64,000 nt of DNA, from positions 11,985,145 through 12,049,144 of the forward strand of contig OX465103.1 in assembly GCA_949987565.1 (NCBI GenBank), read 5' to 3'. Below are positions 11,655 to 34,919 of the stretch, piece after piece. Under the pieces are notes generated by a model. That model had not been told where the DNA came from. It searched no databases and saw only the letters and a list, made by a program, of their open reading frames with translations. Source of the stretch: Luidia sarsii (lineage: Eukaryota > Echinodermata > Asteroidea > Paxillosida > Luidiidae). A program made the translations under genes and the position numbers. Each line of letters opens with the position of its first letter. Within the stretch, counting starts at the first letter, position 1.

Positions 11655-12040
11655 TACCTGCAATACATACAATTAAATCTCAAAAGTTAGAGGGCCTAAT
11701 GTTTCGATCCTAGCAGGACCTTTCTCAAAGGCAAAGCTCACTGACTAAAATGACCTGCAACACATGAATCTCAAAAGTTAGAGGGCCTGACGTTCCGATC
11801 CTAGTAGGACCTTTCTCAAAGGCAAAGGATCATGCTGGGATCGAAACGTCAGGCCCTCTAACTTTTGAGCCTTTGAGAAAGGTCCTGCTACATGTAGGAT
11901 CGAAACGTCGGGCCCTCTAACTTTTGAGCCTTTGAGAAAGGTCCTGCTAGGATCGAAACGTCAGGCCCTCTAACTTTTGAGCCTTTGAGAAAGGTCCTGC
12001 TAGGATCGAAACGTCAGGTCCTCTAACTTTCGAGATAATT
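11655..12040. mobile_element. Multi-arm cluster of the same MITE family
   Basis: Two plus-oriented arms are followed by four reverse-oriented arms (TTTGAGAAAGGTCCTGCTAG repeated). This is a local tandem amplification of one inverted-repeat arm (about 57 bp spacing). Confidence 0.8.
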
Positions 12041-12769: not shown

Positions 12770-12850
12770 GGAGATGTATACGGAGGTTAATGGCAGAATG
12801 CTTGTGACAAGCGCCCCCTACCAGGCTGGATAGCTCAGATGGAAGAGTGC
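12770..12850 (+). mobile_element. Truncated SINE, copy 4
   Basis: Leader and the start of the tRNA part (GGCTGGATAGCTCAGATGG) only; homology stops near 12850. Upstream bases 12675-12700 also resemble the region before copy 1. Confidence 0.65.
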
Positions 12851-12884
12851 CAGGAGCATGTGTGTACACTGTACAGTGTACAAT

Positions 12885-13045
12885 GCATGGATGGATTTCA
12901 CAAAGCCATACGATGCATCGTAACTCAACTTACGATGGATAACCCATTGTACATGTAAGTTGTGATAGGCAGTATAGTTTCTGCGCATTGCTAATTGTCT
13001 CACAATTGATCGCAAGTTATAATGAGTTTGGTGAAATCGACCGTA
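12885..13045. mobile_element. Palindromic element with CGTAACTCAACTTACGATGG core
   Basis: Ends GGATTTCACAAAGCC and GGTGAAATCGACC are inverted. Related copies lie at 35515-35625 and 53085-53255, sharing TGGGTTATCCAT and the AAGTTGTGAT words. Confidence 0.65.
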
Positions 13046-14171
13046 TCATGTGTTAATCCAGAGGCTGTTGTTAACATCCAAGCCATATCCAATTTTTACT
13101 GCTCTATCAAGTTGATATAACATCCCGGTGGTGTTCCATAATTTAACATGAAAACACAATAAAAGTAAGTACATGTAACTGTTTCAGGCAGTGGTTTGTC
13201 AGTATTCAATTCAAATCTCAGACTGTTGGAAATGTTGATGCTTGGACTGTAAAGAAAACAAAAAGATGAACAAGCATGCCACAAGAGATTCTCACTGACA
13301 CAGATGTACAGTGTATGTGCAAACTTGAGCACATGAATACAAGGTATGGGTATGTGTGTATGCACAAGTACAGTGTACAATATGGAACATTTGGAGTGGT
13401 CAGATACCCAAGTTCATTATCTTGAAGTCTGGTATGGTGTGCTCAATATGGTTACCAGACCCAGAGCAATGGCTCAATCCCAGGGTCGGCTTGATGAGTG
13501 GATACGAGGTTGACATCATCATCATTCGGCTGTGGAGCAGGCAAGTATAAACTTTCTCCGACTGCCACGGTCTTGGGCCAGAGAAGCAATTGGATTGCAT
13601 GGAGGACCTCATATGATGTACAGTACAGCACATGTATACGGTGCACGTACAACGTTAAATACAAATGCATGCATCACACATCTACATGTAGTATGTACTG
13701 TATGCCATCTGCAATGAGCTTGCATGGTACATGTGCTGTATGTTCTGTACAACGTGCACATGTAGGTGCGGTAACCATGTCATGACTCATAAGAATGGAT
13801 TTTGGGTTCCATTTCATGATAAAAAAAATCAGGGAAATACATGTACAAGTTAAGGCACTGGATGCAGGACAAAACAGAGAAACTCACCCCGGACAATGTT
13901 TCCTCATAACACTACATTCAGGATTAGGTGCAAAAGACGCAAGATGTTAATTTGATTAGAGGAACACGGTCAAGATCATTGGGGAAGCAGGATTAGAATT
14001 GCGCTGATCATTGGTCAATCACAGAGCCTGGTAAGACCTCCACATTTGGCCGTCATATTCTTCCCTGGATACCAACGCTGGATATCAAGTGCAGGCATTG
14101 CATGGAATTGGGGCTACCCTTGGCTATTTATTTGCATCACGTAACATCTGCTAAGCCATTTGTCACTCGTA

Positions 14172-14461
14172 AGCCCTTTTCACACTACAGGGCAAATCCC
14201 TGGGGAATTCCCGGGGATTTTTTTACCCCATTAACAACCCCGCGACCATTCACACTGGACCCATTCTGAAACTCCCGGGGACCCCATTTCCCTGTGGAAA
14301 TCGTAAAACCCCTGGGTTTTCTCCTTCTACCCTACCCCCCCCCCCCCACCCCAGCAGGGGTAAAAAATCCCCGGGGAAAAGATTTTCCCCAGGTATTTCT
14401 TTGGTCGTGTGAACAGACCAACCAAATTCCCCAGGGATTTGGTCTAGTGTGAAAGCCCCTA
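14172..14461. mobile_element. MITE with TTTTCACACTA terminal inverted repeats
   Basis: Begins AGCCCTTTTCACACTACAGG and ends CTAGTGTGAAAGCCCCT. The interior is rich in CCCGGGGA-type foldback words. A related element lies at 47719-48196, and a likely third at 60375-60612 (ends in GTGTGAAAAGGCCCAT). Confidence 0.75.
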
Positions 14462-14726
14462 TAGAGTGGGACAGAACCTATATGTGTGAGCATGATTATC
14501 ACTTTCTTCTCCTTCAAAAGTGAATATCACGGATCATATGTTGAAATGGGGGTCACTTCCTGCCATTTCGACAGCCCAACTAGGAGGTTGACATGCTTAT
14601 TCCTCGAGGTTAGTGTCATGGTGGCTTCTGACATTCTGATCCCTGTGCAGTCACCATTGGACGACAAACTGTCGAGTTTGGCTTACAGCTTTGGATCCCT
14701 TCATCCCTTACGCTCTTTCCTATCTC

Positions 14727-14840
14727 GGGCCGTGTCCGAATCTAGCTACGGCTAGATCTTTGCTTCACTGGAAACACACAGGGATGCAAAGACAATAGCC
14801 GTAGCCCTAGCTCTGGAAGCCCGTTTCGGACACGGCCTAA
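14727..14840. mobile_element. Short MITE with GGGCCGTGTCCGAA termini
   Basis: 114 bp with GGGCCGTGTCCGAA at one end and TTTCGGACACGGCC at the other. Inner words TAGCTACGGCTAG / AGCCGTAGCCCTAGCT also invert. It ends 43 bp from the exon 8 donor. Confidence 0.8.
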
Positions 14841-14882
14841 CTTGCCATTGCCCTTGTTCCCCCATAGCCTCCCTACACGCAC

Positions 14883-15061
14883 CTCTCTAGCTCGGTCAGC
14901 CTCTTGTCCTTGTCGTTCTTCTCCTCCTCCATCTCCTTCATGATCTCCAGGAGCCGGTCCACCTCGTTCTGCGTTTTGGCCATCTCCTCCTTGTGTCTGG
15001 CCATGGTCTCCACCAGGGTCTTGGCGGCTCGCCGGTCCTCCTCGTCCTTCTCCTCCCTCAA
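14883..15061 (-). CDS. ERC: ERC exon 8 (59 codons plus 2 nt)
   Basis: Encodes LREEKDEEDRRAAKTLVETM, HKEEMAKTQNEVDRLLEIMK and EEEKNDKDKRLTELE. Vertebrate ERC has KDESSKAQAEVDRLLEILKE followed by ENEKNDKDKKIAELER. Length is 179 nt, starting in phase 0 and ending in phase 2. The split codon AG/T gives Ser where vertebrates have Arg. Acceptor CTCCCACCCCAG, donor GAGAG/GTGCGT. A 40-bp minisatellite starts about 15 bp upstream of the acceptor, and a foldback element ends about 43 bp beyond the donor. The N-terminal third of the exon is diverged. Confidence 0.95.
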
Positions 15062-15075
15062 CTGGGGTGGGAGTA

Positions 15076-16460
15076 ATCAATCGGTCCGCCCATCAGTCAA
15101 TCAATCAGATCAATCGGTTAGTCCACTGGTCAATTGATCAATCCACTGGTCAATTGATCAGTTAAACTACGAATCGGTTAGTCCACTGGTCAATTGATCA
15201 GTCTACTGGTCAATTGAACAGTTAAACCATCAATCGGTTAGTCCACTGGTCAATTGATCAGCTAAACCATCAATCAGTTAGTCCACTGGTCAATTGATCA
15301 GTCTACTGGTTAATTGAACAGTTAAACCATCAATCGGTCAGTCCACTGGTCAATTGATCAGCAAAACCATCAATCGGTCAGTCCACTGGTCAATTGATCA
15401 GCAAAACCATCAATTGGTCAGTCCACTGGTCAACTGATCATTTAAACCATCAATCAGTTAGTCCACTGGTCAATTGATCAGTCTACTGGTCAATTGATCA
15501 GTTAAACCATCAATTGGTCAGTCCACTGGTCAATTGATCAGTTAAACCATCAATCGGTCAGTCCACTGGTCAATTGATCAGCAAAACCATCAATCGGTCA
15601 GTCCACTGGTCAATTGATCAGCAAAACCATCAATTGGTCAGTCCACTGGTCAACTGATCAGTTAAACCATCAATCAGTTAGTCCACTGGTCAATTGGTCA
15701 GTCCACTGGTCAATTGATCAGTTAAACCATCAATCGGTCAGTCCACTGGTCAATTGATTAGTTAAATCATCAGTCAGTCCACTGGTCAATTGATCAGTTA
15801 AACTATGAATCGGTCAGTCCACTGGTCATTGATTAATTAAATCATCAATCGGTCAGTCCACTGGTCAACTGATCAATAAATCATCAATTGGTCAGTCCAC
15901 TGGCCAATTGATTAGTTTAATCATCAATCAGTCAGTCTACTGGTCAATTGATTAGCTAAACCATCAATTGGTCAGTCCAATGGTCAATTGATCAGTTAAA
16001 CTATGAATCGTTCAATTGATCAATCAGTTCATTCATCGATAAGCCAGTCCATTGATCAACTCATCAGCTTACCGTTCAAACATTCAGCCCATCAATATAT
16101 CAATCAATCAACCAATCATTTGATCAATCTATCAATGAATCACTCCTTGATTGGTCAGTTGATTGGTCTATCAATCAGTCAATTGATCAATTAAGTTTTG
16201 TTCAAGCAATCATCAATCAATCAATCAATCAATCAATTCAACAGATGAGCTGATCAGTATATCAATTACTCATTGATGAATCAATTGACCAATCAGTCAA
16301 ACCATCAGTTAATTAGTAGACGACAAAGCTAAATGTATTCATTCATCATTGATCGATCAATCAATCAATCAATCAAATGATCAATTGACCACTGACTGAC
16401 CGATAGGCAGAATGATCTGTCAATCATTCAGTCAATTTGTCACCTATTCTTATATGAAAC
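15076..16460. repeat. 40-bp minisatellite grading into (CAAT)n
   Basis: Unit GTCCACTGGTCAATTGATCA plus GTTAAACCATCAATCGGTCA, with occasional 20-bp half units. It is regular from about 15118 to 16010, then degenerate ATCAATCA sequence. It starts about 15 bp from the exon 8 acceptor. Confidence 0.9.
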
Positions 16461-17318
16461 AAACACTTTGCCAATAGACTGGTATCAACTGTGCACACGG
16501 GTATGCAGGTTTGTGTCTCTCTACTGTAGTCTTGATCTCATTGCTGGCCAATGCGAACGGAAACAAAAGGGTGTTATTGTTAGTAGCAAGTCACCATGCA
16601 CACAGTACCAGGGTGTGGTTGGTTCAAATCATGAGGGATTTTCCACTAACTGACTAAGAGTCTGTATCTAAGGGGTGGGACAAGGGGCTGCACAAGTCAT
16701 GCAAGGGATAACATTCTACTTACGGTTAATCAACGCAATAACAGGTAATATATTAAAGCTGAGTTATAACGGGAATAAGATTGCTATACCCAAATAGGTG
16801 GAGATGGGAGCTCTCCTTTTCAACTGACTTGCTAGCTTTGGCACCCAGACGATTTCAATCACCATTAAGGCCATCCAGGTGGTACATCATGTACGTGTAC
16901 ATTATTTCTACACTACAAGTCGGGGTGTCACTGGCCTGGGATGGAGGCTGTACAGTAAGGAATGCAGTGGAGCGTGGGCCAGTGGTGTAGGGCACAGAGG
17001 ATCAATAGGAGGAACTGCAACAGGGTCGTCACATCAACTACTGTACAGTACTATGCAACTAATAGTAACTGTTACCACTGGGGAAGGCAATGTGGATATC
17101 ATTCGGCCGAAATGCGAACATTTTTCCCCCTTAAGTCTAAACATTTTATTCAAAAAGTGTCCAAAAGGTCGAAACATTTCTTTTGAAAATTTTGAAAATG
17201 GAGATAGGTTCCCTTGGATGAGAACCATCTTTTCCACAGTACTGACGATGTACATTGTACAGCATACCTTGTTGAAACAATGACTTAATCTACTGCACAT
17301 AAACTACCAGTACATAAG

Positions 17319-17654
17319 GTAAGGCAGGACAGGGCAGGGCAGGGCAGGGCAGGGCAGGGCAGGGCAGGGCAGGGCAGGGCAGGGCAGGGCAGGGCAGGGC
17401 AGCGCAGGGCAGGGCAGGGCAGGGCAGGGCAGGGCAGGGCAGGGCAGGGCAGGGCAGGGCAGGGAAGGGCAGGGCAGGGCAGGGCAGGGCAGGGCAGGGC
17501 AGGGCAGGGCAGGGCAGGGCAGGGCAGGGCAGGGCAGGGCAGGGCAGGGCAGAGCAGGGCAGGGCAGGGCAGGGCAGGGCAGGGCAGGGCAGGGCAGAGC
17601 AGGGCAGGGCAGGGCAGGGCAGGGCAGGGCAGGGCAGGGCAGGGCAGGGCAGAG
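17319..17654. repeat. (GGGCA)n pentamer tract
   Basis: About 65 copies of GGGCA with four single-base interruptions. The sense strand of ERC is (TGCCC)n. It produces artefactual Pro-Cys-Ala-Leu frames in all three minus frames. Confidence 0.97.
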
Positions 17655-18469
17655 ATTGTGACAGCTGTGCACGGGGACAACCCATTTGGGTCGCACTGAT
17701 GGACCGACACTGGCTGCCCCGAGAACTCATCGGCGGCCTTGAAACAAAATGTTAGTAAGTGACTACATACAGTACACATACGGTAGGATTAACTAAACAA
17801 GAACAATTGACTAGGTTTGAGCTACAGGGTGAAAAAGACTGTCATGCAGAATGCTCTGTGGCAGTGGAGCACATGTAATACCCTTTCCCTCAGCCCTTCC
17901 TCTGTTCATACTCATCCTTTCTCCAATCCAAAGCCCCACCCCCCATAGTAACCCACCTCTCAACCCTGCTCTTCCACAGTCAACTTACCATATAAATTTT
18001 ACGAGCTTTCTGCGCGTGCAGGAAGGAAAGGATGCAACTTAGTTATGGAAATGAGAGTACAGTCAAGGTGAATGCTGATTCCTACCACACTGCAGGCCTA
18101 AGTTAATTTCCACAGTTTCCCCTTTTATCTAAACTAGCACCACTGGCAACCAAAGTGCAAGGATGGTCAATGTACTACCAAACATACAGAATTCTGACAT
18201 GGCTGTCAACCACTGACTGATTTGAGACGGCATTTGTTGATGGCGTAAAGATTTCAGAGCCAGACTGTCTTTTTGTAATAAAAAAAAAAAAAAAAACACT
18301 GGCTGGTTCTCAGTTCTTGAAGAGATTTTCTGAATTTTCATGGATCGTTCCATCTTTACGTCTTTCAAGGGGTAAAGAAAGCTGTGTTAGTCTAAATGCC
18401 GAATGTTAACAACTTAAGGATACCACTTCAAGATAAGCCAATTGGGAGGAGTGCATAAGATTTCAAAGC

Positions 18470-18670
18470 GATATACAAAAAATGTTGCAAACTGCTTACT
18501 GACTAAAATTACCAAAAAGTCTAAAATGCAAATCCTAAACGTTAGTGGGCCTGACGTTTCGATCCTAGCAGGACCTTTCTCAAAGGCAGAGAAAGGTCCT
18601 GCTAGGATCGAAATGTCAGGCCCACTAAATTTTAAGATTTCAAAGCAACGACTACTTCATCAGATGCAAA
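18470..18670. mobile_element. GATCCTAGCAGGACC palindromic MITE, copy B
   Basis: Flank AATGTTGCAAACTGCTTACT, then ACGTTTCGATCCTAGCAGGA, then the inverted arm. The loop is almost absent. Confidence 0.85.
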
Positions 18671-18740
18671 GATGAAGTAGTTGTTCCCACGGGAGCTTAT
18701 GCACTCTATGCAACTGAGTCGTCTTGCAGTGCTATCCCTT

Positions 18741-19132
18741 AAAGCCGCCGCACACGAGAGCTACAATGTATCTGCTGAGCAAAAAATTCTCTCGAGGTCG
18801 TTAGCTCAGCACGTAGCTCTCGTGTGTGCTGAACTTTTAGTGAGATTTCTGCCTTAAGAGGTCGCGAGACCAATATTTATCCTGTTTGATTTTTTTCGCC
18901 TCTCGTGGATGAAAACTCATCGTGTGCGGCGACTTGAGCTACGTGCTGAGCAAAAAAACTGAGCAACTGGCCAATGAAAGCCCACGCTCTGTTCAAGTGG
19001 TTGCCAAAATCAAACAGGATAGATATTGGTCTCACGGCCTCTTGAGGCAGAAATCTCACTAAAAGTTCAGCGCACACAAGAGGTACGTGCTGAGCTAACG
19101 ACCTCGAGATAGCTCTCATGTGCGCCGGCTTT
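18741..19132. mobile_element. 390-bp foldback element (AAAGCCGCCGCACACGAGAG ends)
   Basis: Long inverted arms: GTTAGCTCAGCACGTAGCTC / GAGCTACGTGCTGAGC words, TTTAGTGAGATTTCTGCC and its inverse, and CCAATATTTATCCTGTTTGA and its inverse. A shorter relative is at 19358-19443. Confidence 0.85.
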
Positions 19133-19357
19133 GAGCTGCACGTGAGTCTTCCTTTGTTTCAAAATGAAAAAATCTTCAAAATGGAATAGCCAGGCCTTCT
19201 TGCACTATTGTTTTGCTTTTGACTTCACGGTCATTGTTTGCCCAGAGCATCGACATTAAGTTATTATTCAGCACTTGCAATCTCATTCTGTAAGGCAGGG
19301 TTTGTGACCACAAGAATGTGTGGATGCCTAGGCAGTTCTGTGACATTCATCCCCCCC

Positions 19358-19443
19358 ACACGGTGAGCTACATGTACGTGCTGAGCTAACGACCTCGAGA
19401 TCTTTTTTGCTCAGCAGATAGCTCTCCTGTGCGGCGGCCTTTA
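19358..19443. mobile_element. Short relative of the 18741-19132 element
   Basis: CACACGGTGAGCTAC ... GTGCTGAGCTAACGACCTCG ... GTGCGGCGGCCTTTA: the same words in compressed form. Confidence 0.75.
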
Positions 19444-20283
19444 GTTGTTATTAGGTCTTTAGAGGAAGGTCTTAGGTTAAATGACCCAATACTTTGCCAG
19501 TGGTTGAAGCAAGATCAACAGTGGTTGGGAAATCAGATCAGTTTGGATGAGACTCTATGGGGGGGGGGCTCCCTAGGAGGCTTGGTTGCAGTGTGGTAAG
19601 CCCCAGTAAAAAAAGAAAGAAAACAATTGAGTATGGAGAAAAATGAAAAGATGATGCCCGACCATCTGGCAACAACCCTCACAGGCACAGCGTCACCTTT
19701 CCTGATATCTGAACCCACCATGGCTCCATATTAATAGGGGACTTTTCACTACAGGTAGAGTCTGAACACACCGCAGTTCCGACAAATATGGACTCTAGGT
19801 TCTGAAGTCGGTGGCTCCAGTTCCATCAAAGTATCAACGACTGATTTGGAACTTTTAAAGACAGGGTTTCTTAGGTTTGTTACGGGCCAGGTACATGTAC
19901 ATGTGTATCGATCAGAGTTGACGGAAACTGCAAGGAAGCATGTGAGTATTAAGCTACATACTCCCTTAGAAGACTAGACACTCTCTCAAACCTCTCAGTT
20001 TCTTTGTGAGAAATCCACTTCTGAAAGTGGCACTTCATTGGTCACACACTCTCTTTTTTTTTTAAAGGGTCGCCTATGTGATGGAAAGTCTGCAAGACTG
20101 GATTCACATGGCAATGTGGCTAATGGGAACAGCCACCAACAGGTTAGATAGCACTACCCGGCCGACAGTTAACATGCCAGGGGGTCTCCGCAAACAAGCT
20201 TTTGGAGACCTCCTCCACTTATCCTGACAGGAATTAATCCGTATCCTTGTGTATCCGCTGTTGGAATTATGAATAAGTGGAAA

Positions 20284-20346
20284 TAAAATTGAATTGAATT
20301 GAATTGAATTGAATTGAATTGAATTGAATTGAATTGAATTGAATTG
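20284..20346. repeat. (GAATT)n pentamer tract
   Basis: About 12 perfect copies of TTGAA. Confidence 0.97.
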
Positions 20347-20376
20347 AGAGATGAATTCATCCACGCTTGTCAGCAG

Positions 20377-20625
20377 GGCCCAATTTCAAGGAGCCGCTTA
20401 AGCGTAACAAATCTGCAAAGCAGGAAAACTCCCCCCCCATGTAAAAAGGATCACAAACCACACTGAGACATGATGACAACTGTTCGTGACTTGTATTCTG
20501 CTATTCTTGGCTTAGCGTGAAACAGAGGAGAAGTTTGGGTTGGCAAGGTGATCCTATGAATCGTGACTTTTCGTGCTAAAGCAAATTCTGGGCGCTTAAG
20601 CGGCGCCATGAAATTGATCCCAGAC
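20377..20625. mobile_element. Foldback element with GGGCCCAATTTCA termini
   Basis: Left GGGCCCAATTTCAAGGAGCC GCTTAAGC pairs with right GCTTAAGCGGCGCCATGAAATTG. Likely relatives lie at 22740-22850 (right end only) and 53905-54180. Confidence 0.75.
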
Positions 20626-21684
20626 CTTTCAGCTGACCAGCGCACCCCTTGTTCTCTTCAGGCCCGGAAGGACCAGCAACCAATACATGTGCCTGGGAAG
20701 GTGTTGCTTGCCAGAGGGTCAAGAAATACAGAGATCAACAGCCAAGGAACACAGACACAACTTTGTCCGTGTCACATTTGAATACAGGGCATCTGTTGGA
20801 GAGGAAAGGAATGGACAAGCTCCATATATGCAAAGATGCACAGCGTCAGGAGGAAGTGGTTGTGTGAGTGGCGGAGAGGCTAGAGTACAGTACGTGTTGT
20901 TCTCGGGGAAGATAGATGAAGTAGACAAGCAGGGGCCATGAGCACTTCATCATCAACTTAATCTGCACTCCCGGTGATCCCGGGATACTTCAACTGGCCT
21001 ACAAGTGCAGGTTTCAACCACTGCCACCAGGATCCCAAGTCCACGTGAGAGGTGACGAGTGGATTCAGACTTCAGGGGGGTTCTCGGGAGATGATCTTAG
21101 ATTTCAGCATTCATCCCCTCCCCTATCAGTCTTCCACTTCAAGCAGTCATGCAAGCAGCAGTGAAGTTAGCTCGTAATAGAGAAAAAGCGGCGGTTAGTC
21201 TACCAGTATCGGATGAGTCAAGATTCAGAAGAGTGATTCTACACAGTAGCAGAAACTTATGCCAGGTGATCGGAGAGGAGCAACCGGGGGTCAGCTTTCT
21301 AATTTCCCTGGGAACAAGGAGGATGCTGGTTGCATGGATCGTCGGCCCCATCTGTTCCCTCCCCCTCCCAACAACGTACATTGTAAAATGGTCAATTGTA
21401 CCCAATGGGAGGATGCGTGAATGCCACATACATGTACATGCGCGCATCGGCTATGGCATTGCCCACACAAGCACCACTGCACCCAGCAGATTCCACGGAT
21501 CAGCCTGAAAGTTTCTGTGAAGTGTGTACTGCAGCTGCTGAGTATGAAATATCTGCATGCTCGTAAGTATGCAAGATGCTCTATGCATCGCCAAAAGCTC
21601 AAATAACACCGCCACCCCATCGCAGGGAACCTCAGTCGCGCCGCCCGTCTATTCATTTTCTTTGGGTCGGCAGCATGAACCCAC

Positions 21685-21825
21685 CTTCTTGAGGTCGGTC
21701 TCTTGCCTGGAGACTTCCTCCGTCTTCTGGGCCACGGCCAGCTCCAGGGTGGTGATCCTGGAGTCCTTCTTGAGGCTGGAGGAGGCCAGGGTGGAGGCAT
21801 GCTCCTTGAGGTCCAGCAAGCTTGC
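21685..21825 (-). CDS. ERC: ERC exon 7 (47 codons)
   Basis: Encodes ASLLDLKEHASTLASSSLKK, then DSRITTLELAVAQKTEEV and ETDLKK. This is nearly identical over its first 22 residues to vertebrate ERC ASLLDLKEHASSLASSGLKK. Length is 141 nt, phase 0 at both ends; acceptor CCCTCTTTCAG is strong, donor AAG/GTGGGT. It joins directly to LSEKE of exon 6, as in vertebrates. It is among the most conserved exons in the window and anchors the family assignment. Confidence 0.97.
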
Positions 21826-24613
21826 CTGAAAGAGGGCGGCATTCGTGGCCATTAATGGTGTTGTCGGGCACTGGCAGGGGACACACCTGGGTGTGTGTAA
21901 TATCAACCACAGAGCTGTGCCCTATCCAGCGTGTCCGAAAAATGGGCCATCCGGTAGACCTACCGGTACCGTCCAGTGAACCACAGTTAATTGATTGATA
22001 GTGTGTGGAGGCACTCTATTCAGAGTGTGCACACAGTGAACCACAGTGCCTGTATTCAGCTGACTGATACCAGGGACTGTGTGGATGCAATGACCCTATT
22101 CAGAGTGCACACAGTGGGCCATTGAGTGAACAACAGTGCCTGCATTCAGCTGACTGATACCAGGGACTGTGTGGATGCAATGACCCCATTCAGAGTGCAC
22201 ACAGTGGGTCATTCAGTGAACCACAGTGCCTGCATTCAGCTGACTGATACCAGGGACTGTGTGGATGCAATGACCCTATTCAGAGTGTACACAGTGGGCC
22301 ATTGAGTGAACCACAGTGCCTGCATTCAGCTGACTGATACCAGGGACTGTGTGGATGCAATGACCCTATTCAGAGTGTACACAGTGGGCCATTGAGTGAA
22401 CAACAGTGCCTGCATTCAGCTGACTAATACCAGGGACTGTGTGGATGCAATGACCCCATTCAGAGTGCACACAGTGGGTCATTTAGTGGATCACAGTGCC
22501 TGCATTCATTCAGGGACTGTGTGGATGCAATGACCATATTCAGAGTGCACACAGTGGGTCATTTAGTGAACCACAGTGCCTGCATTCAACTGACTGATAT
22601 CAGGGACTGTGTGGATGCAATGATCATATTCAGGGAGTACAAAATAGTTGCAAGTACTGCATACAGCTGACTGATACCAGAGTGTGTGTGGATACAGTGA
22701 CCGTATTTAGAGTGAATGCAGAGTGCCCGATATTAGCAAGCATCAAGCGGAATACGCTGGCAATCTCGTTTTAACCAGGGAAGGCATTCCTTGCTTAGCA
22801 GATTTTTCAGCCTTAAGCAGCTCTATGAAATTGGGCCCTGGTCGGAGACTTCAGAAGAGAAGGGCCTCAATGCACTGTGCATGCGGGTGAACCTGTAAAT
22901 CAAGCTGGGACCTGCGACCAACTTCCCCTCTCCTCACTCACCTCCTTCTCGCTCAGCTCCTTCCCCTCTCCTCACTCACCTCCTTCTCGCTCAGCTCCTT
23001 CCCCTCTCCTCACTCACCTCCTTCTCACTCAGCTCCTTCCACTCTCCTCACTCACCTCCTTCTCGCTCAGCTCCTTCCCCTCTCCTCACTCACCTCCTTC
23101 TCGCTCAGCTCCTTCCACTCTCCTCACTCACCTCCTTCTCACTCAGCTCCTTCCCCTCTCCTCACTCACCTCCTTCTCGCTCAGCTCCTTCCCCTCTCCT
23201 CACTCACCTCCTTCTCGCTCAGCTCCTTCCCCTCTCCTCACTCACCTCCTTCTCGCTCAGCTCCTTCCACTCTCCTCACTCACCTCCTTCTCGCTCAGCT
23301 CCTTCCCCTCTCCTCACTCACCTCCTTCTCGCTCAGCTCCTTCCCCTCTCCTCACTCACCTCCTTCTCGCTCAGCTCCTTCCCCTCTCCTCACTCACCTC
23401 CTTCTCGCTCAGCTCCTTCCCCTCTCCTCACTCACCTCCTTCTCGCTCAGCTCCTTCCCCTCTCCTCACTCACCTCTTTCTCGCTCAGCTCCTTCCACTC
23501 TCCTCACTCACCTCCTTCTCGCTCAGCTCCTTCCCCTCTCCTCACTCACCTCCTTCTCGCTCAGCTCCTTCCCCTCTCCTCACTCACCTCCTTCTCGCTC
23601 AGCTCCTTCCCCTCTCCTCACTCACCTCTTTCTCGCTCAGCTCCTTCCACTCTCCTCACTCACCTCCTTCTCGCTCAGCTCCTTCCACTCTCCTCACTCA
23701 CCTCCTTCTCGCTCAGCTCCTTCCCCTCTCCTCACTCACCTCCTTCTCGCTCAGCTCCTTCCCCTCTCCTCACTCACCTCCTTCTCGCTCAGCTCCTTCC
23801 ACTCTCCTCACTCACCTCCTTCTCGCTCAGCTCCTTCCACTCTCCTCACTCACCTCCTTCTCGCTCAGCTCCTTCCACTCTCCTCACTCACCTCCTTCTC
23901 GCTCAGCTCCTTCCACTCTCCTCACTCACCTCCTTCTCGCTCAGCTCCTTCCCCTCTCCTCACTCACCTCCTTCTCGCTCAGCTCCTTCCCCTCTCCTCA
24001 CTCACCTCCTTCTCGCTCAGCTCCTTCCCCTCTCCTCACTCACCTCCTTCTCGCTCAGCTCCTTCCCCTCTCCTCACTCACCTCCTTCTCGCTCAGCTCC
24101 TTCCCCTCTCCTCACTCACCTCCTTCTCGCTCAGCTCCTTCCCCTCTCCTCACTCACCTCCTTCTCGCTCAGCTCCTTCCCCTCTCCTCACTCACCTCCT
24201 TCTCGCTCAGCTCCTTCCCCTCTCCTCACTCACCTCCTTCTCGCTCAGCTCCTTCCCCTCTCCTCACTCACCTCCTTCTCGCTCTGCTCCTTCCCCTCTC
24301 CTCACTCACCTCCTTCTCGCTCAGCTCCTTCCCCTCTCCTCACTCACCTCCTTCTCGCTCAGCTCCTTCCCCTCTCCTCACTCACCTCCTTCTCGCTCAG
24401 CTCCTTCCCCTCTCCTCACTCACCTCCTTCTCGCTCAGCTCCTTCCCCTCTCCTCACTCACCTCCTTCTCGCTCAGCTCCTTCCCCTCTCCTCACTCACC
24501 TCCTTCTCGCTCAGCTCCTTCCCCTCTCCTCACTCACCTCCTTCTCGCTCAGCTCCTTCCCCTCTCCTCACTCACCTCCTTCTCGCTCAGCTCCTTCCCC
24601 TCTCCTCACTCAC
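21826..24613 (-). other. ERC intron between exons 6 and 7
   Basis: Almost entirely tandem repeats: the 38-bp donor-containing array (22921-24613 within the intron) and the 90-bp array (about 21975-22720). A tail of a GGGCCCAATTTCA-type element lies near 22740-22850. Confidence 0.8.
21975..22720. repeat. 90-bp tandem repeat
   Basis: GTGGATGCAATGACC recurs at 22081, 22171, 22261, 22351 and 22441; about eight copies including degenerate ends. Typical words are CATTCAGCTGACTGATACC and CAGAGTGCACACAGTGGGCC. Confidence 0.92.
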
Positions 24614-24635
24614 CTCCTTCTCGCTCAGCTCCTTC
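22921..24635. repeat. 38-bp minisatellite spanning the exon 6 / intron boundary
   Basis: 45 copies of the donor hexamer (ACTCAC on plus, GTGAGT on sense) at 22936 to 24608, exactly 44 x 38 bp apart with no length change. The sense unit has 22 nt of exon end (coding KELSEKE) and 16 nt of intron. Homology to the exon stops at 24635. Because 38 is not a multiple of 3, the plus strand is open in long frames, which is an artefact of the repeat. Confidence 0.98.
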
Positions 24636-24892
24636 TGGAGGCTCTCCAGGCGTGCCCGCGCCTCCTTCAGCTGTCGCTGGTGGGCCTGCAGGGCCTCCTC
24701 GTGCTCCCGCCTCGCCCGCTCCAGCTGGCCCGTGGCCACCTCCAGCGACCGGTCCTTGGCCATCAGCGCCTCCTCCAGGCTGGACATGGCGCTGTCGGCG
24801 CTGCACTGGTCGGCCTGGGCCGAGCTCAGCCGGGCCCGCAGCTGCTGGAACTGCTCCTCCTTCTCCTGCAGCTGCTCCTGCAGGTTGTCAAT
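24614..24892 (-). CDS. ERC: ERC exon 6 (93 codons), 5' splice site embedded in a 38-bp minisatellite
   Basis: Encodes IDNLQEQLQEKEEQFQQLRA, SSAQADQCSADSAMSSLEEA and ends RLESLQKELSEKE. This matches vertebrate ERC IENLQEQLRDKDKQ...TDTALATLEEALSEKE...LQAELTEKE. Length is 279 nt, phase 0 to phase 0; acceptor CCGGCCACAG. The donor GAG/GTGAGT is the exon-proximal member of 45 identical donors at exact 38-bp spacing (see the array at 22921-24635). If splicing used any distal copy, translation would run on through VSEERGRS into TGA in the next unit, so only the first donor keeps the protein open. Codons are very GC-rich. Confidence 0.96.
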
Positions 24893-25118
24893 CTGTGGCC
24901 GGGGGACGGAAGGGGGACGAAAGGGGGGACAGGGTGGAGAGGTGGGTCAAAGCGAGGCAAGGACCGCGCGTTGCCGAGTCAAAACTTTACTTTTTCATAC
25001 ATACATTCACCACAGCTGCCAGCCAATCTTCAAGGAAATTTGGAATATTTCTGCTGAAAAGATGATTCACAGAGAAAACTACATAGAACATAGGAATACA
25101 TGTGTATAGTGGAACGTC

Positions 25119-25275
25119 ACTATAACAAACATCTCAGCATCTGGTCGTTCATTATAGCAGTTGCGGCCACATATAGAACACAAAAATTGGGAGCCAAAGG
25201 GCATTTTCGTTATAGGTGAATGTTTAGTATATCAGCATTCATTATAGCGACGCTATAACGAATGCTGATATATTT
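25119..25275. repeat. Hairpin element with ATTATAGC words
   Basis: AATGCTGATATA at the right inverts TATATCAGCATTCATTATAG; GAACGTCACTATAACAAAC at the left edge has inverse words near 25225-25262. Confidence 0.6.
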
Positions 25276-25872
25276 CCAAGCCAAAAATCGGAATCTGTTG
25301 TCAAGAGCTTGTGAAAAGTGATCGATTTTAACCCCCTAAAAAGAGGAATGGTTTCTCCAAAGATGGTTGGCAGCTATGACATACACATGCACTGTCAACC
25401 CCCCCCCCACCCCCATTAAAGCTCTTTCAGAGGGGGGTTGCGGTGGGAAGTCTTTGCTCACAGCCAGAAGCAGTGTGAAGTGAATGCAAAAGGGGACCCA
25501 CTTTCGACTGGTGCATTGTCAGTTCCTGTTCGTGACTTTGAAGCAAGCTTCGGGCGGTGGGGGTTAAGAATGGATGCAAAGAAGACCTGCTTCCCATGGG
25601 TGCAGTGTCGGTGTCCCTTTTGGGGGGCTGGGGGGAGGGATGGGAGATCTTGTTTGTGGACAAAAGTAGAATGGACACAGAGCAGCCTGTGGTGAGCGCC
25701 TTAGGGAAAGCCATCCTCACAGGGATGGGCCATCTCTTATGGTATGGACTGATGCTGCATTTGATAGCAAAGGTAACGCTTGTAGTACTGTGGCCATGAC
25801 AGTTAATGGTCTTCACGACATTTGATGGCCCGTGGTCATTTAGCCTGGTCATTGACTGACGAGGTCCCACTG

Positions 25873-26215
25873 GTCGGGGTCCATTCTGGGTCCATTCTGG
25901 GTCCATTCTGGGTCCATTCTGGGTCCATTCTGGGTCCATTCTGGGTCCATTCTGAATTTGTTTCTGTGTCCATTCTGGGTTCACTCTTGGACCATTCTGG
26001 GTATGTTCTTTGTCAATTCTTTGTCAATTCTGGGTCAATTCTGGGTCAATTCTGAGTCAATTCTGAGTCAATTCTGGGTCCATTCTGGGTCCATTCTGGG
26101 TCCATTCTGGGTCCATTCTGAATTTGTTTCTGTGTCCATTCTGTGTCCATTCTGTGTCCATTCTGTGTCCACTCTGGTCCCATTCTGGGTCTATTGAGTC
26201 CATTCTGGGTCCATG
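25873..26215. repeat. 11-bp tandem repeat (GGGTCCATTCT)n
   Basis: Two blocks of GGGTCCATTCT with GGGTCAATTCT and GTGTCCATTCT variants, separated by degenerate units around 25950-26030. Confidence 0.92.
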
Positions 26216-27744
26216 GCCCTTTTTCTTTTAGCTGGTTGAGGGGGGTTGGCAATACTCAACTTTTGTACACCAATAAACCAAGCGGGTCTAACACACTAGG
26301 AACACTCAAGTGAATCAGTGGTCAAACCCTGCATTGCCAATAAACCCTGCATTGAAATACATGTAATGTAGGTCATGGGGCAAAGAGGTCAAAGTTCACC
26401 CTTTGAGTATCTCATAGGATACTCTGTGCACAAAATAATTGGAGAATACAAACACTGAAGTAGTCCAAAAATGTGAAGTACCGTACACAAATTACAACTG
26501 GGTAAAACTGTATTTGCAAAAAAACAAAAATCAAAAACAGGAAAAAAGGGAAAAATATACACCAATGCATACACTGAAAGAGAAATTTACGACGGTACAA
26601 AGAGTATTAATGCACAAATTGACCAAAAAAATAATAATCCAAGGAAAAAAGATCAGAAGATTAGGTTAACAAAATGCAAAAAGTGGAAGTATTAGCAAAC
26701 CAAAAAATCAGAAATACAGAGGTTTTGTCATTCACAACAAAACCAAAAGAAAAGAAATTAAAAACAAACAACAAAAGGAAGTCATGACTTTTCTTCTTTT
26801 TTTTCTTACAAAAAATAAGCACAAATTGCAATCTACTTCCGAAAAATCTGCCAGACAACCGCCTTCGATCCTTGGAAGGATTGTTAGGGAATAATGCTTT
26901 GAAACCACGCCAGACATTGTTGCCTTGAAAAGGGCAGACTGCCGAGAAAACAGAGCAAAAAGGATTGGGGACATTTTAGTTTTGGATTGAACAGGAAACA
27001 GAAATAAAGGATGGCTGGAGAAGTCGGAGCGCACAGCAATGTTGACAGTCAATCAAACCAGGGAAAGAGTCCATTCCTGTCACTATCTTTTTTTTGGTTT
27101 GAGGGGATATAATTTTCACAGACGGGGACGGGAACAACTTCAGGGCACAAAACTAGGGAGCAGAGAGTCCTTTTTTAAAAGCAGGCAGACCAAAGAGAGT
27201 TGGCTGACCCCAATCACGCACAGAGAGTACAGAGAGACAGATGAAAGTATAAACCAGATAACAACTAAATCAATCATATATATATATATATAATAGAGTA
27301 CATTTACACATGCTCAATGACACGTTCCAATTTGGACACACGACCGATTATGATACACATCCATCTCATTCAGATTGCTTTTCTTCTTTGGGCGACTTCA
27401 TGGTGCTACCGTACATGTACTGGTTCTATTCTGAATGCCAAACTATCCAGTCTGCGGTAATGTGGTTAATGTGGGGTTTTGTTTCACTTTTCATTTCATT
27501 TCATTTGTGCGCACCACTTTTTTTGGGGGGGGGGGGGTTAGGGGAAATTGGGGGGGGGGGGAGGGGAAATGATCACATTATTCTTTGTCATAGACATTGT
27601 ACTTCAGGTGGGGGACTTTGTGTGAGTACAGATAATTTGCTTGGGAGAGAGGAGAGCCGGGAAAGGTCCAAGTTGCATGTACACATGTATGTAGGTTGAT
27701 TATAGGGTACATGGAAAGTTGGGCAGGGGTAGGGCCAAGGGGTG

Positions 27745-28095
27745 GGGGTATGGATGACAGGGGGCGTGGATGGCAAGGGGTATAGGTGGCAGGCTTATGG
27801 GTGGGAAGGGGTATGGGTAGCAAAGGTTATGGGTGGCAGGGGTATGGGAGGCAAGGGGTATGGGTGGCAGGCATACTGGTTGGAAGGGGTATGGGTATCA
27901 AGGGTTATGGGTGGCAGGGTTATGGATGGGATGGGATATGGTTGGCAAGGGGTATGGGTAGCAATGGATATGGGTAGCAAGTGGTATGGGTAGCAAAGGT
28001 AATGGGAGGGAGGGGTATGGTGGCAGGGTTATAGGTGACAGGAGTGTAGGTAGCAGGGGTGTGGGTGGCAAGCGGTATGGGTGGCAAGGGGCAAT
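27745..28095. repeat. About 15-bp degenerate minisatellite (GGGTATGGGTGGCAA)
   Basis: Some 23 imperfect units of GGGTATGGGTGGCAG/A. The plus strand is G-rich; the sense strand of ERC is C-rich. Confidence 0.85.
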
Positions 28096-29530
28096 GGGCG
28101 ATACACCTGACAGGGAATACATGTACTGTACATACGCAGGAGAGGGCAGATAGACAAACCCAGCAGAGCCCCATCTGTCCTCCCATTCAATGCATCAAAG
28201 CCCTGCATCAAGCCACCCTGCAATAACCAAGCCCACTGCCCAAGGCCCTCCAACTGCTCCCACTAACCACCCCCCCAACCACCCCCTCCCCCCAAAAAAA
28301 ACCACCCCAAAACCCACAGTCCCCTGGCAAAACAAAAACGCAGTAGCTTTTGCAAAACCCCACACACCACAGCACAAAAGGCAACTGTTTCCACGGTTCC
28401 TTCAGGACAGGGAATACTGCGCACAGAAAAGGGGCCTCCATCCTCCCTCTCCCCACCCTCCCTGGTCTATGAAACGAGGCTGAGGGATTCCAACAGTTAC
28501 ATGTAACCCCCCCCCCCTCCCCTCCCTTCCCTTGAAGAATCCACATTTCGCCAGAACCCTGCCTTAGAAAAATGCTCTCGTTTTCTTGAGCAGTGCGTCT
28601 CTTGATGGCCCACAAGTTCCCATTATGATGGCTTCTGACTTCCTCCCCCCCCCTTGAAAAAAGGGCTACTAATAGTACTATAGGAATGCCCCGATAGTCG
28701 GTGCCCCTGATCTTTTTCTCAGTAAACAGAGTTCTGCGTGTACTGTGTATTGCCATTGATACAGGTGCTATACTGATGCAACCTTGTGAAATTCAAAAAT
28801 CCACGGTAAAATACCGCTCGAAACTCTACCAGACTGTTTTGGATGGTCATGCCCGCATGATATGCATGTGAGGAGATCATTCATTGCCAACATGAGATGA
28901 ATGCCCTTTTCTTCATTTCAGTTTGGCGCCCTCGGGTGTTATATCAATCGAAGCACTGCTGAGCCTTTTGGCCGCAAAGTACTGCGATGATCAATTGCAT
29001 CAATCACTCCAGGACACCTTCATTGTACCAGAGACAATCCATCACTCCTGAGAAAATGGAGAGTGAATAGAATTGGAACTAAATTCTTCAGAAGAAGCCC
29101 GTAGTCCGGGCTTCGCGGCCTCCACATGTATTAGTTGAGAGTAGTTTTATCATAGTTCGTAATTTGGGGGTTATTTTCAGCCAATTTGGATTTTCATTTT
29201 TTTTTTTTTCTTCGATGCTTTGATAGAAAAAGGAATACACTTTTCCCAGTGAAATGGAACAAATACAGTCACGTTTAAGGTTTGGGGAGGGGGGTGGAGG
29301 ATGGGGAGGTGAAGGTGGTAGACGGGGTGAAGGGGCAAGAAGCAAATGAAGAATAGTGGCTTCAAGTTTGGCATTTCACTCCCCCCCCGACCCCATCCCT
29401 ACCATCTTCTTCCCTCTCCCCAAGCCCCTACTCCCCTCGAGCAGGGGAGGGAGGAGGGGAGGGGGGTGACAAAGTCCGGTCTTAGTGTTAGTTCTGAAGG
29501 AGGAGGAGGGGGTGTTAGTTCAAAGGTCAC

Positions 29531-29593
29531 CTTGATCTGCAGTATGTACTGCTTCTTCTCCTTGATCTCCATGGCATTAGTTGAATCAGAAAG
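29531..29593 (-). CDS. Candidate ERC cassette exon (21 codons), resembles the end of exon 5
   Basis: On the sense strand a T-rich tract (a run of 18 T) precedes GTCAAAG, then 63 nt open in phase 0 (LSDSTNAMEIKEKKQYILQI plus K), then AAG/GTGACC, an acceptable donor. The last 13 residues resemble the last 13 of exon 5 (EIKEKKQYILQIK against DIKERKIGVLQRK, 7 of 13 identical), with the same final codon and phase. Twenty-one residues equal three heptads, so inclusion would keep coiled-coil register. Vertebrate ERC as I remember it has no insert here. It could be an alternative exon made by partial duplication, a dead duplicate, or chance. No transcript evidence is available. Confidence 0.4.
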
Positions 29594-30179
29594 CTTTGAC
29601 GGGCGGCAAAGCAAAAAAAAAAAAAAAAAGTAAAAAAAAAATCAATAACGTAACCACAAACAAACAAAAAGAATACAGATTAGAAAGCCAGCAGGGTCAG
29701 AGGTCGGCAAACTGGTCTTGGCTCTACGCCAGTGACTCAAGGGAATGCCCCCAGTGCAGACTTCTCTCACTCCCTCTCTCCGGATAAGATTTTAGGATCT
29801 CTTGGCGTCCCAGGCTCTGACGAGTTTGTTTCCGAGAGGATATCAAATTGAATGCACACAGCAGATTAGTCGGCCACTGACGTTAAGATTATCATTTCGT
29901 GCGTGAACCACAACGTCATAAAACATGCATCAAAACTGGCAGCTGGTGAGATAAGTCACCCGGTTTGGGATGATCAAGTTCAGTTCAGTTGCCGTACGGT
30001 ACTGTACGTCCAGGCACATCAAAGATTTACCAATGTGCTCTCTGCTACATGTATGCAGTGTATTCACACTGCTGTGGATTCTGACTGACTGGCAGCCAAA
30101 TTCCATCCAATAGGGCTGTGTGCAAGATTCACCCCCTTCCAAAACTCCTGACGAGAATCCAGACCAAAGCCCAAAACCT

Positions 30180-31200
30180 GTGTTAGCCTACGGGGTTACT
30201 ACATGTAGCCTACAGTGTCTGTGCACACATGTACACTGTACATGTATATGTGCAGTATGGATTTCTGCTACATTGTACATAAATTATAACTTGTACACCA
30301 GGCTGTGATATGCTCTAAGATTGGCTCATGCATGTGTACACAGGTTCTGGTGATCAATTGAACAGACCAGTTGTGGCCATGAGATTCACATACTGTACAG
30401 TACATGTAGTGTACATGTACGCACATGTAGATGTGCATATGTACATGTATACAGTATGGTACATGTACATGTACACGTATATGTACATGTACACAGTAGG
30501 TACTAAAGTGTAGTGTAGCACACCTCACGGATGACTGGATGCATCGGATATCGAATGAGAGACACCCATCCACTCACTCTCCACCCAACCCTCCCCTCAG
30601 ATGGCCTGAGATGAGACTGGCTGAAGCCAGACAGAGACGATGTTGCCGGCTACCAACCAGACCAGATGGTGCCTGACAAGGCAGGCAACGTGCTCCGAGA
30701 GATGTCCCTAATTAACAGCTCGGATTGAGTGCTGGCTTCCTCCTCTATTTTGCCCTTGATGGATTGGTGACTTACATGTAGAAAGGCAATGACAGCAATT
30801 TTAAACCAGCCATGCAATTCAGAAATGATTTCACATTAGGAACATTGTGTACATGCAGGTATGCTCTACATGTACATGTACATGTACAAATGTACACTGT
30901 ATATGCTTGCTGAATAACATTTGTACACTCATACCAACGTGTGCACGTACATGTATGTGGATGTATGTAAATTTTCAAGCCCATAATGAACTTTTGTTTT
31001 CATCCATTCCCTTGTTAGGGGTACAAGTATTGTACATGTACGGTACAGTAAGTAAAAATAAAAGCATGGTGCAAAAATTACTGTTTAAGAGAGATGCACG
31101 TACACATTCTACAGTATGCCAAATGACATACACTGTAAATGTGCATTGTAAATTGTAAACTGTAAACAAAGTACATACACTGCACTTCTACATGTAACAT
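30180..31200. repeat. GTACAT-word cluster
   Basis: Short palindromic runs such as TACATGTACATGTACA separated by CAGTA, GCATG or CCGGTA words. Densest at 30220-30500 and 30850-30960. Confidence 0.8.
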
Positions 31201-31805
31201 GCAAACCAATTATCGGTATTGGTTGGAATGCAAAGTCTCTGACTTGTACTCAGTCCCCCCAAAAGCTACCGGTACATCATTCTGCCTTTGACAGGGGTTC
31301 TGCTGAAAGTTCACGCCCTCTAGTCTGATTTCTTAGAATTATCGCATTAAATTTCGGGTCATTTTCCGGAATTCCTTCTTCATCTGAACTGCAGATGACT
31401 AGAACAAACAATCTGCTCCGAGAGTCCACGGTTGTATTTCTAGAATGAAGCAGAGTGGAGAGCAGGGGGGAAGGGAGTTGTTTGTTGACACACGGAGGCT
31501 GATCTCCCAGCAGCTAGGAAGTTGGCTTCAAATCGTCTGGCCACTACTTCTTCTTTTTTCTCTTCTTCTCCTCTTTCTCCCTCCTCCTCCACCTCCTCTT
31601 CCTCCTCCTCCTCAGCCGAGCGCCGATGATTTCCCTAGGTGGGGTCCGTTAATCCGTTGTAATAAGGGGGTAACTTCGTTAGGGCCAAGGCGGCCTGGCC
31701 GCGCATGGCTGGCTACCAGTCCGCATCCACGCTGCCCGCCTACCGGGGATAATCAGTTTACCAGGGTTGGTTAGCGCACTGATTTCAATGCGACGAGGCA
31801 GTGAC

Positions 31806-32268
31806 GAGTCAGAGAGGGAGGGAGAGGAGGGAGGGAGGGAGAGGAGGGAGGGAGGGTGGGAGAGGAGGGTGGGAGGGAGGGAGGGAGGGAGGGAGGGAGG
31901 GAGGGAGGGAGGGCGGGAGGGAGGGAGGGAGGGAGGGAGGGAGGGAGGGAGGGAGGGAGGGAGGGAGGGAGGGAGGGAGAGGAGAAAGGGAGAGGAAGGA
32001 GGGAGGAAGGGAGGGAGAGGAGGGAGGGAGGGAGAGGAGGGAGGGAGGGAGAGGAGAAAGGGGGAGGAGGGAGGGAGGAAGGGAGGGAGAGGAGGGAGGG
32101 AGGGAGAGGAGGGAGGGAGGGAGAGGAGGGAGAGGAGGGAGGAAGGGAGAGAAGGGAGGGAGGGAGGGAGAGGAGGGAGGGAGGGAGAGGAGGGAGGGAG
32201 GGAGGGAGGGAGAGGAGGGAGGAAGGGAGAGGAGGGAGGGAGGGAGGAAGAGGAGGGAGGGAGGGTAG
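31806..32268. repeat. (GGGA)n-type polypurine tract
   Basis: About 460 bp of GGGA and GAGGA words, nearly free of pyrimidines; polypyrimidine on the ERC sense strand. Confidence 0.95.
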
Positions 32269-32397
32269 CTTGGAGGCTTGGTGGTCGGTTCAATTAGCCG
32301 ATATGCTGGTCTGGATAGCTTCTTCCGACCGTGTAAAAAAAAAAAAATGGGTCAAATCTAAGACCCACAGCAAGCGTGACTATACCAATCAACCGAT

Positions 32398-32611
32398 TGC
32401 GTGACCAATGTTTACATGCCATCAAGGGAGTTATACAGTGGGTATTTTTTTCATCTCATTTGGTGTAGAACAGGAGTAGAAATGAGCAAAGAAGACAATC
32501 ATATTGTCCACATTCTTCTTTGTACATTTCCATCGCCGCTCTGTGCCAAATGAGATGAAAAAAAAACCCACTATAAGTCACGTGATGGCATGTAAACAGT
32601 GGTTGCGCAAT
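32398..32611. mobile_element. 214-bp foldback element
   Basis: Left GCGTGACCAATGTTTACATG ... TTTTTTCATCTCATTTGG inverts right CCAAATGAGATGAAAAAA ... CATGTAAACAGTGGTTGCGC, with a 90-bp loop. Confidence 0.85.
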
Positions 32612-34919
32612 CCGTCTATTGGGTATCACTGAACGGGGCTGGTGAGGTGGAGGGACCAAACTCTACGAGAATTTTGTTTTCTTTTTTTTTAAAGTCCTGA
32701 AGAAAAACTGACAGCCTTTCAACGGAACAGGTCTACAAATCGGAGGAGAGGAGGAATTGACTTGATAGCACCGCGAGGGACGAGGAAAGTAGGCCAATCA
32801 TGCCCATGATTTGTTGACGATTCCCGGTCGACAGCTGCTTGCCATCTCAGCGAGCTCTGCCAGGGCACCCTAGGAACGGAGTGCTAGGAAGGGGACCGCG
32901 CGCAATGCACTGAAAGAACCTTCATTGATCTGGACTCGGCCAACCGTCTGCTCGTGTGTCAACGAGGATCTGACCTTTCGGACATGAAGCTAGCGCTGTC
33001 AGCGCCCTGATCGGATTACATTCTCACTGACGCAAATCATAACACCCGTGTAAACTGAACCTGCGCATGAGCGACCGCGGCATCCATCCCTGCACAAATC
33101 CAATCCACTGCACGTTCTTGACCCTCACGGTATATATTGTCAAAGTGATGAGGGATTCGTAAAGGGCCCATAACTCCACTTCCAACGGATTACCCAATGG
33201 TAGAGCTGCAACTTGAATGGCGCAATTGTGCAATATCCATCGTCCTTTGATTGACTGGAAGTGAAAGTTTCATGTACACTGTAACCTAAGCCAAAATTTA
33301 AGCGCCTTACACAAAACTTTGGCAATTTGAAACTGTCAACCATTATCACGCTCTTCTGGCAAACCTTTTGGGTTGCAAGAATTTGTACAAGAAAAAATCA
33401 TAATATTCATCAATCATATTGTCCCTTAAATTTGGTGCCTGTGCTTTGTACTGGTAGGACTGCTATGTCCATAAGATAAATTCTCATCTTGAGAAAGCTT
33501 ATCACCTAGGGGAATTGAACAATATCCTTTTAATCTAAACAAAAAGGGAAATGATAAAACCCACAGTTTATTTAGTCTGCATTGGATAGGACTTTGATTA
33601 TGCTGAAAAGCAAAAGGGAAAAGCTATTAACTGCAACAATTGTATCTACACTGTAACTGTACGCACATGTACAGATGTAAGTCTTCAGTGCAGGAAGATG
33701 CTGGTACCTTGATGGAAGCCCTAGCTTCAGTCAATGCTATGCCTTACGGGTACCAGACATTCAATGGCCTGTGTACACACTGTCGGGGACAAAAGTCTCC
33801 GGTTCAAATTATATCCTCCTCGTAAACTACGGACCATCCGTTCATATCCCCGAGGCAAAGGTTTGGAAAAACGATCCTTCAGCCCTATCTAAGAGAAAAT
33901 GTCATTAAAAGATGTCCTAACTGGCCATCAGTCTATCAATCTAAATGTACATTTTGTACATACATAAACATGTACAGTACTGGTACAGTATATGACACAA
34001 GTGATGGTCATGGGACCTATATTATACATGGAATTTTAAATAAACCACAAGACACCAACATGTACCGTACAACAGTACTGTACATGTACATGTACATGGG
34101 TTAGACCTGTGGTCAAGTTGGCAAAGGTGGTTGAACTTCCCTACTAGATGGGCAGGATATCAAAACTCAAATCCAATTTTGAAATCAAATCCCATCCAAT
34201 CCACATTTGATTTGTGGGGGTTTCATTTTTCAATGTGGATTTGCCCTTCCTCGAAATGAACGTGTACAGATACATGCACATGTTGCACTGCATGCTGTAG
34301 CACTGTATGCCTGGTGCTTAGTTTCAATTACTTGCCCCCCCCAAAAAAAATGCAGGCCAACCAAGCTGCATGAAATAATTTCACGCTGACAATTAGCAGG
34401 CCGTGCACTGAGCACAGACAGGAACTAACATCAAATCAGCATGGGACAGGCCCTGATTGAGTTATATCTGCTTGTCTGTATCTTGGGATGTGCATCTGTT
34501 TGGAGGTTGATGCAGGTAACCAATCACTGGCTTGCTTGTTAGCGTCTTTGGCTGTCTCTAGCCAGTGCCGAGATGTAAGATTCCTCGATTGCATTAAAGG
34601 TACGGTGCACCATTTGCAAAGGTCAAGGAACCGCTTCCATACTTTGTCAAACTCAACGCATCCATCAGATAACAAGCTGCCTAAGTTTTGGCTCCATCCG
34701 TCGACCATGTCATGAGAAAAATTGTGGAAACAAAATTAAATGCTATTGCTAATGTTTTTCAGACATAGAGGCCAGTATTCGTAAAATCGGGAATCTGCAA
34801 AGAGTGAATCTGCTGAAGACAAAATGGCCTCTGACTTACATTCACAGTTGAGATTTGAAGATTTTCGTGGTGAGAATAGCGGAAGAAGTAACAGGTTTGC
34901 GTTAACACAATGCACAATT

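Follow-up and report, generated by a model that had tools for sequence, protein, structure and literature searches.

How is a coding exon joined to the next one when its 5' splice site is only the first of 45 equal copies, and what does it mean that a second exon end in the same gene is repeated in the same way? The locus that raises these questions lies in the window, the whole stretch of 64,000 nucleotides of Luidia sarsii DNA that was analysed, where two minisatellites with units of 38 bp and 121 bp each run from the end of a coding exon into the adjoining intron. Coordinates below are positions in the window.

The gene carrying both arrays is, by its predicted protein sequence, ELKS/ERC/CAST, which encodes a synaptic scaffold protein: Pfam Cast (PF10174) is matched with E=1.2e-58 over the 342 residues scanned, and ten exons anchored at splice sites join into one open frame. 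As modelled, the gene occupies 4832..53839 on the minus strand, with both ends beyond the model, and comprises ten main exons and two probable alternative exons (50832-50957 and 29531-29593, minus strand) that match alternative exons of relatives. A protein search scored 7990 candidates, of which 4920 fell below the cut-off and 120 are listed as matches; at the top of these 120 are the sea stars Acanthaster planci (80% and 76%), Patiria miniata (78%) and Asterias amurensis (74% and 69%), and the listed sea urchins and Branchiostoma show 51-57% and 44-45% identity, respectively. The Acanthaster protein P0002 covers 100% of the 657-residue query at 80% identity. A frame reading RKHCPG near 13904, followed by GGTGAGT at 13888, matches IIRKHCPG of relatives and may be a further micro-exon.

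Exon E (24614..24892, minus strand, 279 nt) is supported by the splice-anchored model, Pfam and homologues; it ends in phase 0, its final 22 nt supply the exon portion of the first 38-bp unit, and the next coding exon in the splice-anchored model, exon F (21685..21825, minus strand, 141 nt), follows in frame. The junction of the two reads KELSEKE|ASL in Patiria and Acanthaster and KELAEKE|ASL in Asterias P0004, and no insert was found at either array junction in the sea-star homologues inspected, save for P0005, which is without exon F. The acceptor at 24892, the frame that stays open over ten exons and the sea-star junctions that read through all agree with the original prediction that this exon ends at 24614; its label as exon 6 was not confirmed, since it is the seventh coding exon recognised in the window and the 5' end of the gene lies beyond the model. 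In P0005, a predicted isoform of Asterias amurensis, exon E is spliced straight to exon G and exon F is skipped. The exon F motif was missed in 4 of the 120 listed homologues, three of which carry variant residues there, and by motif scan and reading P0005 is the only one of the 120 without the exon; this suggests that the E/F junction may be alternatively spliced in a relative and has no bearing on the array.

The 38-bp minisatellite across the exon E donor occupies 22922..24635 (minus strand), where Tandem Repeats Finder reports a period of 38, 45.1 copies, 98% matches and 0% indels, and direct count gives 45 units. The unit is GAAGGAGCTGAGCGAGAAGGAG|GTGAGTGAGGAGAGGG, and counting confirmed that it consists of 22 nt of exon end plus 16 nt of intron, as had been predicted. 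The donor motif GGTGAGT is intact in 45/45 units on the minus strand, the first intron base running from 24613 (first donor) to 22941 (last donor), and all 44 donor-to-donor spacings are exactly 38; the donor range of 22936 to 24608 given originally refers to the lower coordinate of those same GTGAGT hexamers, and its spacing of 44 x 38 bp is exact. The description of 45 identical donors holds for GGTGAGT and fails for the whole unit, which matches the unit sequence exactly in 31 of 45 cases and carries at least one substitution in 14. These 14 units hold 15 substitutions at 4 unit positions (ten at position 37, two each at positions 19 and 13, and one at position 9), with 0 inside GGTGAGT. 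Likewise, the statement that every unit rebuilds GAAGGAG/GTGAGT is right for GGTGAGT and too broad for the longer string, AAGGAG|GTGAGT being complete in 43/45 units. On the sense strand, 33 of the 38 bases of the unit are purines. The exon-proximal donor, GAG|GTGAGT (24608..24616, minus strand), outscores the other nine main donors, with 11.45 bits vs 7.1-9.8 by a simple matrix. A separate 90-bp array (22035-22633) lies in the same intron, closer to the acceptor.

Variant units are scattered across units 10-43 and the array is clean at both edges. One variant falls among units 1-18 and 13 among units 19-45 (position permutation test, P=0.06); the longest run of invariant units gave P=0.46, and the RNA structure over the first units gave z=-1.54, with 12 of 200 shuffles folding equally well or better. 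Selection could also explain the 45/45 intact GGTGAGT motifs, but variation is limited to 4 unit positions, which leaves the array without power to detect selection on the decoy donors.

The second array is real, as the original prediction of two such arrays in one gene had it. It extends over 5427..9374 (minus strand; Tandem Repeats Finder and gene model) across the donor of exon I (9317..9448, minus strand, 132 nt by the gene model), whose final 57 nt form the exon portion of the first 121-bp unit (57 nt of exon plus 64 nt of intron). All 32 near-identical units keep the donor GT (GTAATG in 29, GTAATA in 3). The acceptor-like CTTTTGACTCTTGAGACAG is found 32 times, and in 31 cases a donor follows 52 nt later, so that the array contains 31 pseudo-exons of 52 nt, each running from CTTTTGACTCTTGAGACAG to the next donor. 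Units 3 and 10 equal the coding unit exactly and the remaining 29 copies differ from it by 2-8 bases; within units 2-31, identity is found for 5 of the 23 pairs separated by seven units, compared with 0 or 1 pairs at any other separation between 1 and 15, a pattern consistent with block duplication.

Measured against the coding unit, the copies of this array differ at 7/57 exonic and 8/64 intronic sites, and 28 of the 31 encode changed residues. The coding copy, by contrast, has QQTQTISNLQRQ, the same reading as Patiria and Acanthaster. The exon thus appears to be ancestral and under constraint, and the copies appear free of it. Degraded units lie at the distal end (5345..5450, minus strand), a feature of this array only, no degraded edge unit being present in the 38-bp array. 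The first of them has GATAG|GTTATG at 5450-5439: in this 33rd unit GTTATG replaces GTAATG at 5445-5440, the GT being retained, and the donor scores 1.68 bits vs 7.34 for GTAATG by the same simple matrix. The similar exonic and intronic divergence, the changed residues and the degraded 33rd donor argue against upkeep of the decoys, and the 121-bp decoy copies look unconstrained.

Arrays so regular could owe their length to assembly, the true 38-bp array being shorter or longer. Near-perfect 38-bp units are hard to size, and one amphioxus mirage (an exon/intron-straddling minisatellite) is noted as apparently misassembled in the draft genome (PMC3087553). The scatter of variants over units 10-43, the clean edges and the 121-bp array's own similarity in blocks of seven units speak against such an artefact, and the straddling itself requires few copies; we regard this explanation as very improbable.

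The choice of donor decides the reading frame. With exon F attached, donor 1 of the 38-bp array gives an open frame and donors 2-45 all reach the same in-frame TGA after 8 added codons, VSEERGRS (44/44), as predicted originally when only the exon-proximal donor was said to keep the frame. The first residues read from the intron, VSEE, occur in 2 of the 120 listed homologues, elsewhere in the protein (P0082 and P0114; one frog). In the 121-bp array, donor 1 is likewise open and one early stop is common to the other 31/31 donors. Since donors 2-45 and 2-32, respectively, bring in a stop, products of leaky splicing are expected to be removed by nonsense-mediated decay.

One reading of so uniform an outcome (44/44, and alike in the second array, 31/31) is that competition between donor 1 and 44 decoys governs how much productive ELKS/ERC mRNA is made, with repeat number and splicing-factor balance doing the tuning. 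The strength of the exon E donor among the ten main donors (by the same matrix) and the predicted Asterias isoform P0005, which skips the exon directly after the array position, can be counted in favour of such an unproductive-splicing switch, but the copies in the 121-bp array look unconstrained, and we consider the switch unlikely. A bolder version, which we hold to be just as doubtful, makes the two arrays a tunable unproductive-splicing device in which hypervariable repeat number would give heritable, perhaps somatically variable, dosage of ELKS/ERC, a presynaptic scaffold protein, the 121-bp copies serving as a nursery of new exons or introns.

The window is rich in tandem repeats, and arrays make up 22.8% of it, so it is no surprise when a donor falls within one: among the 10 main donors 2 do, with 2.2 expected (P=0.70). 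No acceptor is straddled by an array (0/10). When only the terminal unit of arrays with units of at least 20 bp is considered, 2 donors are seen and 0.33 expected, with P=0.036 (circular shift) and P=0.038 (independent placement) for the ten main donors, and, again for independent placement, 0.048 with 11 donors and 0.063 with 13; these overlap tests are post hoc and concern a single window. The straddling structure is unmistakable; two such donors, however, are no more than mildly unusual in sequence so repeat-rich. That the overlap comes merely from a window full of tandem repeats therefore has the share of sequence in arrays and the chance-level count of donors inside them on its side, but both donors sit in a terminal unit and the coding end is itself the repeated sequence (P 0.036-0.063). 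Repeat density explains frequency and not structure, and as a full account it is extremely unlikely; it agrees with the absence of function that is part of the explanation we prefer.

Several further features of the window were noted. A third array (46378..46614, minus strand), of GGGTGAGTGGGTGGACT type, starts after the first 3 nt of the intron that follows exon B (46618) and holds 6 GGTGAGT without including the exon end; the real donor of exon B, CAG|GTATGG, scores 8.43 bits, about the same as the decoys, TGG|GTGAGT, at 8.76 bits (same matrix). A repeat of about 900 bp that is CT-rich on the sense strand (38742-39637) stops 15 nt short of exon C (38726), on its upstream side, and resembles an expanded polypyrimidine tract. 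Three Rfam tRNA matches on the plus strand (9736-9808, 10032-10105 and 3412-3485; by ARAGORN one unassigned, one Gly and one Cys), of which two lie within the H-I intron and one downstream of exon J, are genes or tRNA-derived repeats, and a match to the histone 3' UTR stem-loop (RF00032, 38.6 bits, 34966-35011, plus strand) just past exon D is perhaps a fragment or retrocopy of a histone gene.

The sense strand of the window carries 53 GGTGAGT and the other strand 5, and 45 of the 53 lie in the 38-bp array. Dozens of intronic sites for U1 might guard a long pre-mRNA from premature cleavage and polyadenylation (telescripting), or delay splicing, and this strand bias fits such a U1 sink. Yet 51 of the 53 are confined to two arrays, 45 in the 38-bp array and 6 after exon B, and the captured donor of the 121-bp array is weak (7.34 bits by the matrix), so that this role too is highly improbable. 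The original suggestions of a U1 sink, a splicing-fidelity test or a switch gained no positive support from the window, in which the 121-bp decoys look unconstrained.

We think it likely that both arrays are mirages that expanded passively, and that splicing runs mostly from the exon-proximal donor, with a leak that gives stop-containing transcripts. The usual account of how minisatellites are born is that short repeats on either side seed the array, which slippage or unequal exchange then enlarges. At each array, a stretch including the exon end and its donor would have been duplicated first, in the 38-bp case perhaps between two GAAG repeats, one exonic and one intronic: GAAG stands at the distal array edge (22922..22925, minus strand) and again, within the exon, at the start of unit 1 (24632-24635). 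The pair is a possible seed repeat, and chance can also produce a four-letter match. Amplification would then have proceeded by slippage or by unequal exchange and conversion, the copies 3' of the first donor turning into intron. From then on the exon-proximal copy would stay coding under purifying selection and the downstream copies would drift freely, probably without function. The splicing machinery would mostly pick the exon-proximal donor; where it leaks to the donors that follow, the products would carry a stop and enter nonsense-mediated decay.

An argument against exon-proximal choice comes from duplicated donors. Where two identical 5' splice sites compete, reporters often favour the intron-proximal one. 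Enhancers placed between competing donors can strengthen this preference: in earlier work described in PMC1877881, 5 of 10 exonic enhancers raised use of the intron-proximal donor. The purine-rich 38-bp unit may itself act as an enhancer, which would work against exon-proximal choice. Because identical-site preference and enhancer effects may both oppose the exon-proximal donor, the array poses a real question on how donors are chosen. Nature has in effect set up an experiment on how 5' splice sites are selected, with 45 equal GGTGAGT at regular spacing, few variants and a stop unless the first is used. Moreover, as the coding end of the exon has whole units in common with an array, conversion could threaten or renew it. 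What lifts the locus above the routine is how many equal donors it has, that two donors were captured in a single synaptic gene, and that a coding end shares its units with an array. A mirage in an echinoderm suggests that such structures may be a general outcome where dense minisatellites meet exon ends.

Among the closest known systems are those of amphioxus, as the original prediction had suggested: straddling arrays are in print as mirages in Adh3, the globins BflGb6 and BflGb9, TnC and PGBD5, where normal splicing is reportedly left intact (PMC3087553, PMC3902484). In those accounts, as in the sea star, repeats span the exon-intron boundary and splice signals are copied. Units made of part exon and part adjoining intron are found here as 22+16 nt and 57+64 nt, and copies that carry the splice signal as GGTGAGT in 45/45 and GT in 32/32. 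BflGb6 is described as a homogenised cluster from which edge units are excluded; signs of concerted evolution with divergent edges are seen here in the degraded distal units and the lag-7 identity of the 121-bp array, and the 38-bp array has no degraded edge and a polarity of P=0.06. The 31 pseudo-exons are the kind of substrate invoked in the globin mirage model of intron gain by AG/GT tandem duplication (PMC3087553), and no extra residues were found at the exon I junction in the sea-star relatives inspected. The sea-star arrays differ in having 45 and 32 units, compared with the 3 and 6 given for the two BflGb6 haplotypes, in occurring in an echinoderm and not a lancelet (the nearest listed proteins being those of sea stars, the case falls outside lancelets), and in having captured two donors in one gene.

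Human IFI6 (6-16) has a minisatellite with a 12-bp unit in about 26 copies. Like the sea-star arrays, it is a repeat bearing a donor at an exon end. It reportedly provides multiple splice donor sites (Turri 1995). Two of its downstream repeat units are described as donors, with three mRNA species, in PMC4526556, and the minisatellite paper is cited in PMC2572611 and PMC2915984. Whereas the extra IFI6 donors are said to yield isoforms, the extra sea-star donors each give a stop, and coding isoforms of the IFI6 type are, by frame alone, not expected from the repeat donors, donors 2-45 adding 8 residues and then TGA. Minisatellites at human exon-intron boundaries can alter splicing and form new introns; those internal tandem repeats average 30-bp units x 4 and lie in recently duplicated paralogues of segmental duplications (PMC2812944). 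In the available part of a study of earthworm genes, intronic minisatellites are reported and no straddling array is described (PMC12783039), and tandem repeats in a sea-urchin immune gene family are the subject of another paper (PMC5103432). No echinoderm straddling array was recognised among the literature matches listed, a weak negative as most subscription papers lay outside its scope. Within the literature searched, exon/intron-straddling minisatellites are thus already known, in lancelets and in one human gene, and what is new here is that the case comes from an echinoderm, that one gene has had two of its donors captured, and that units of an array are identical to the end of a coding exon.
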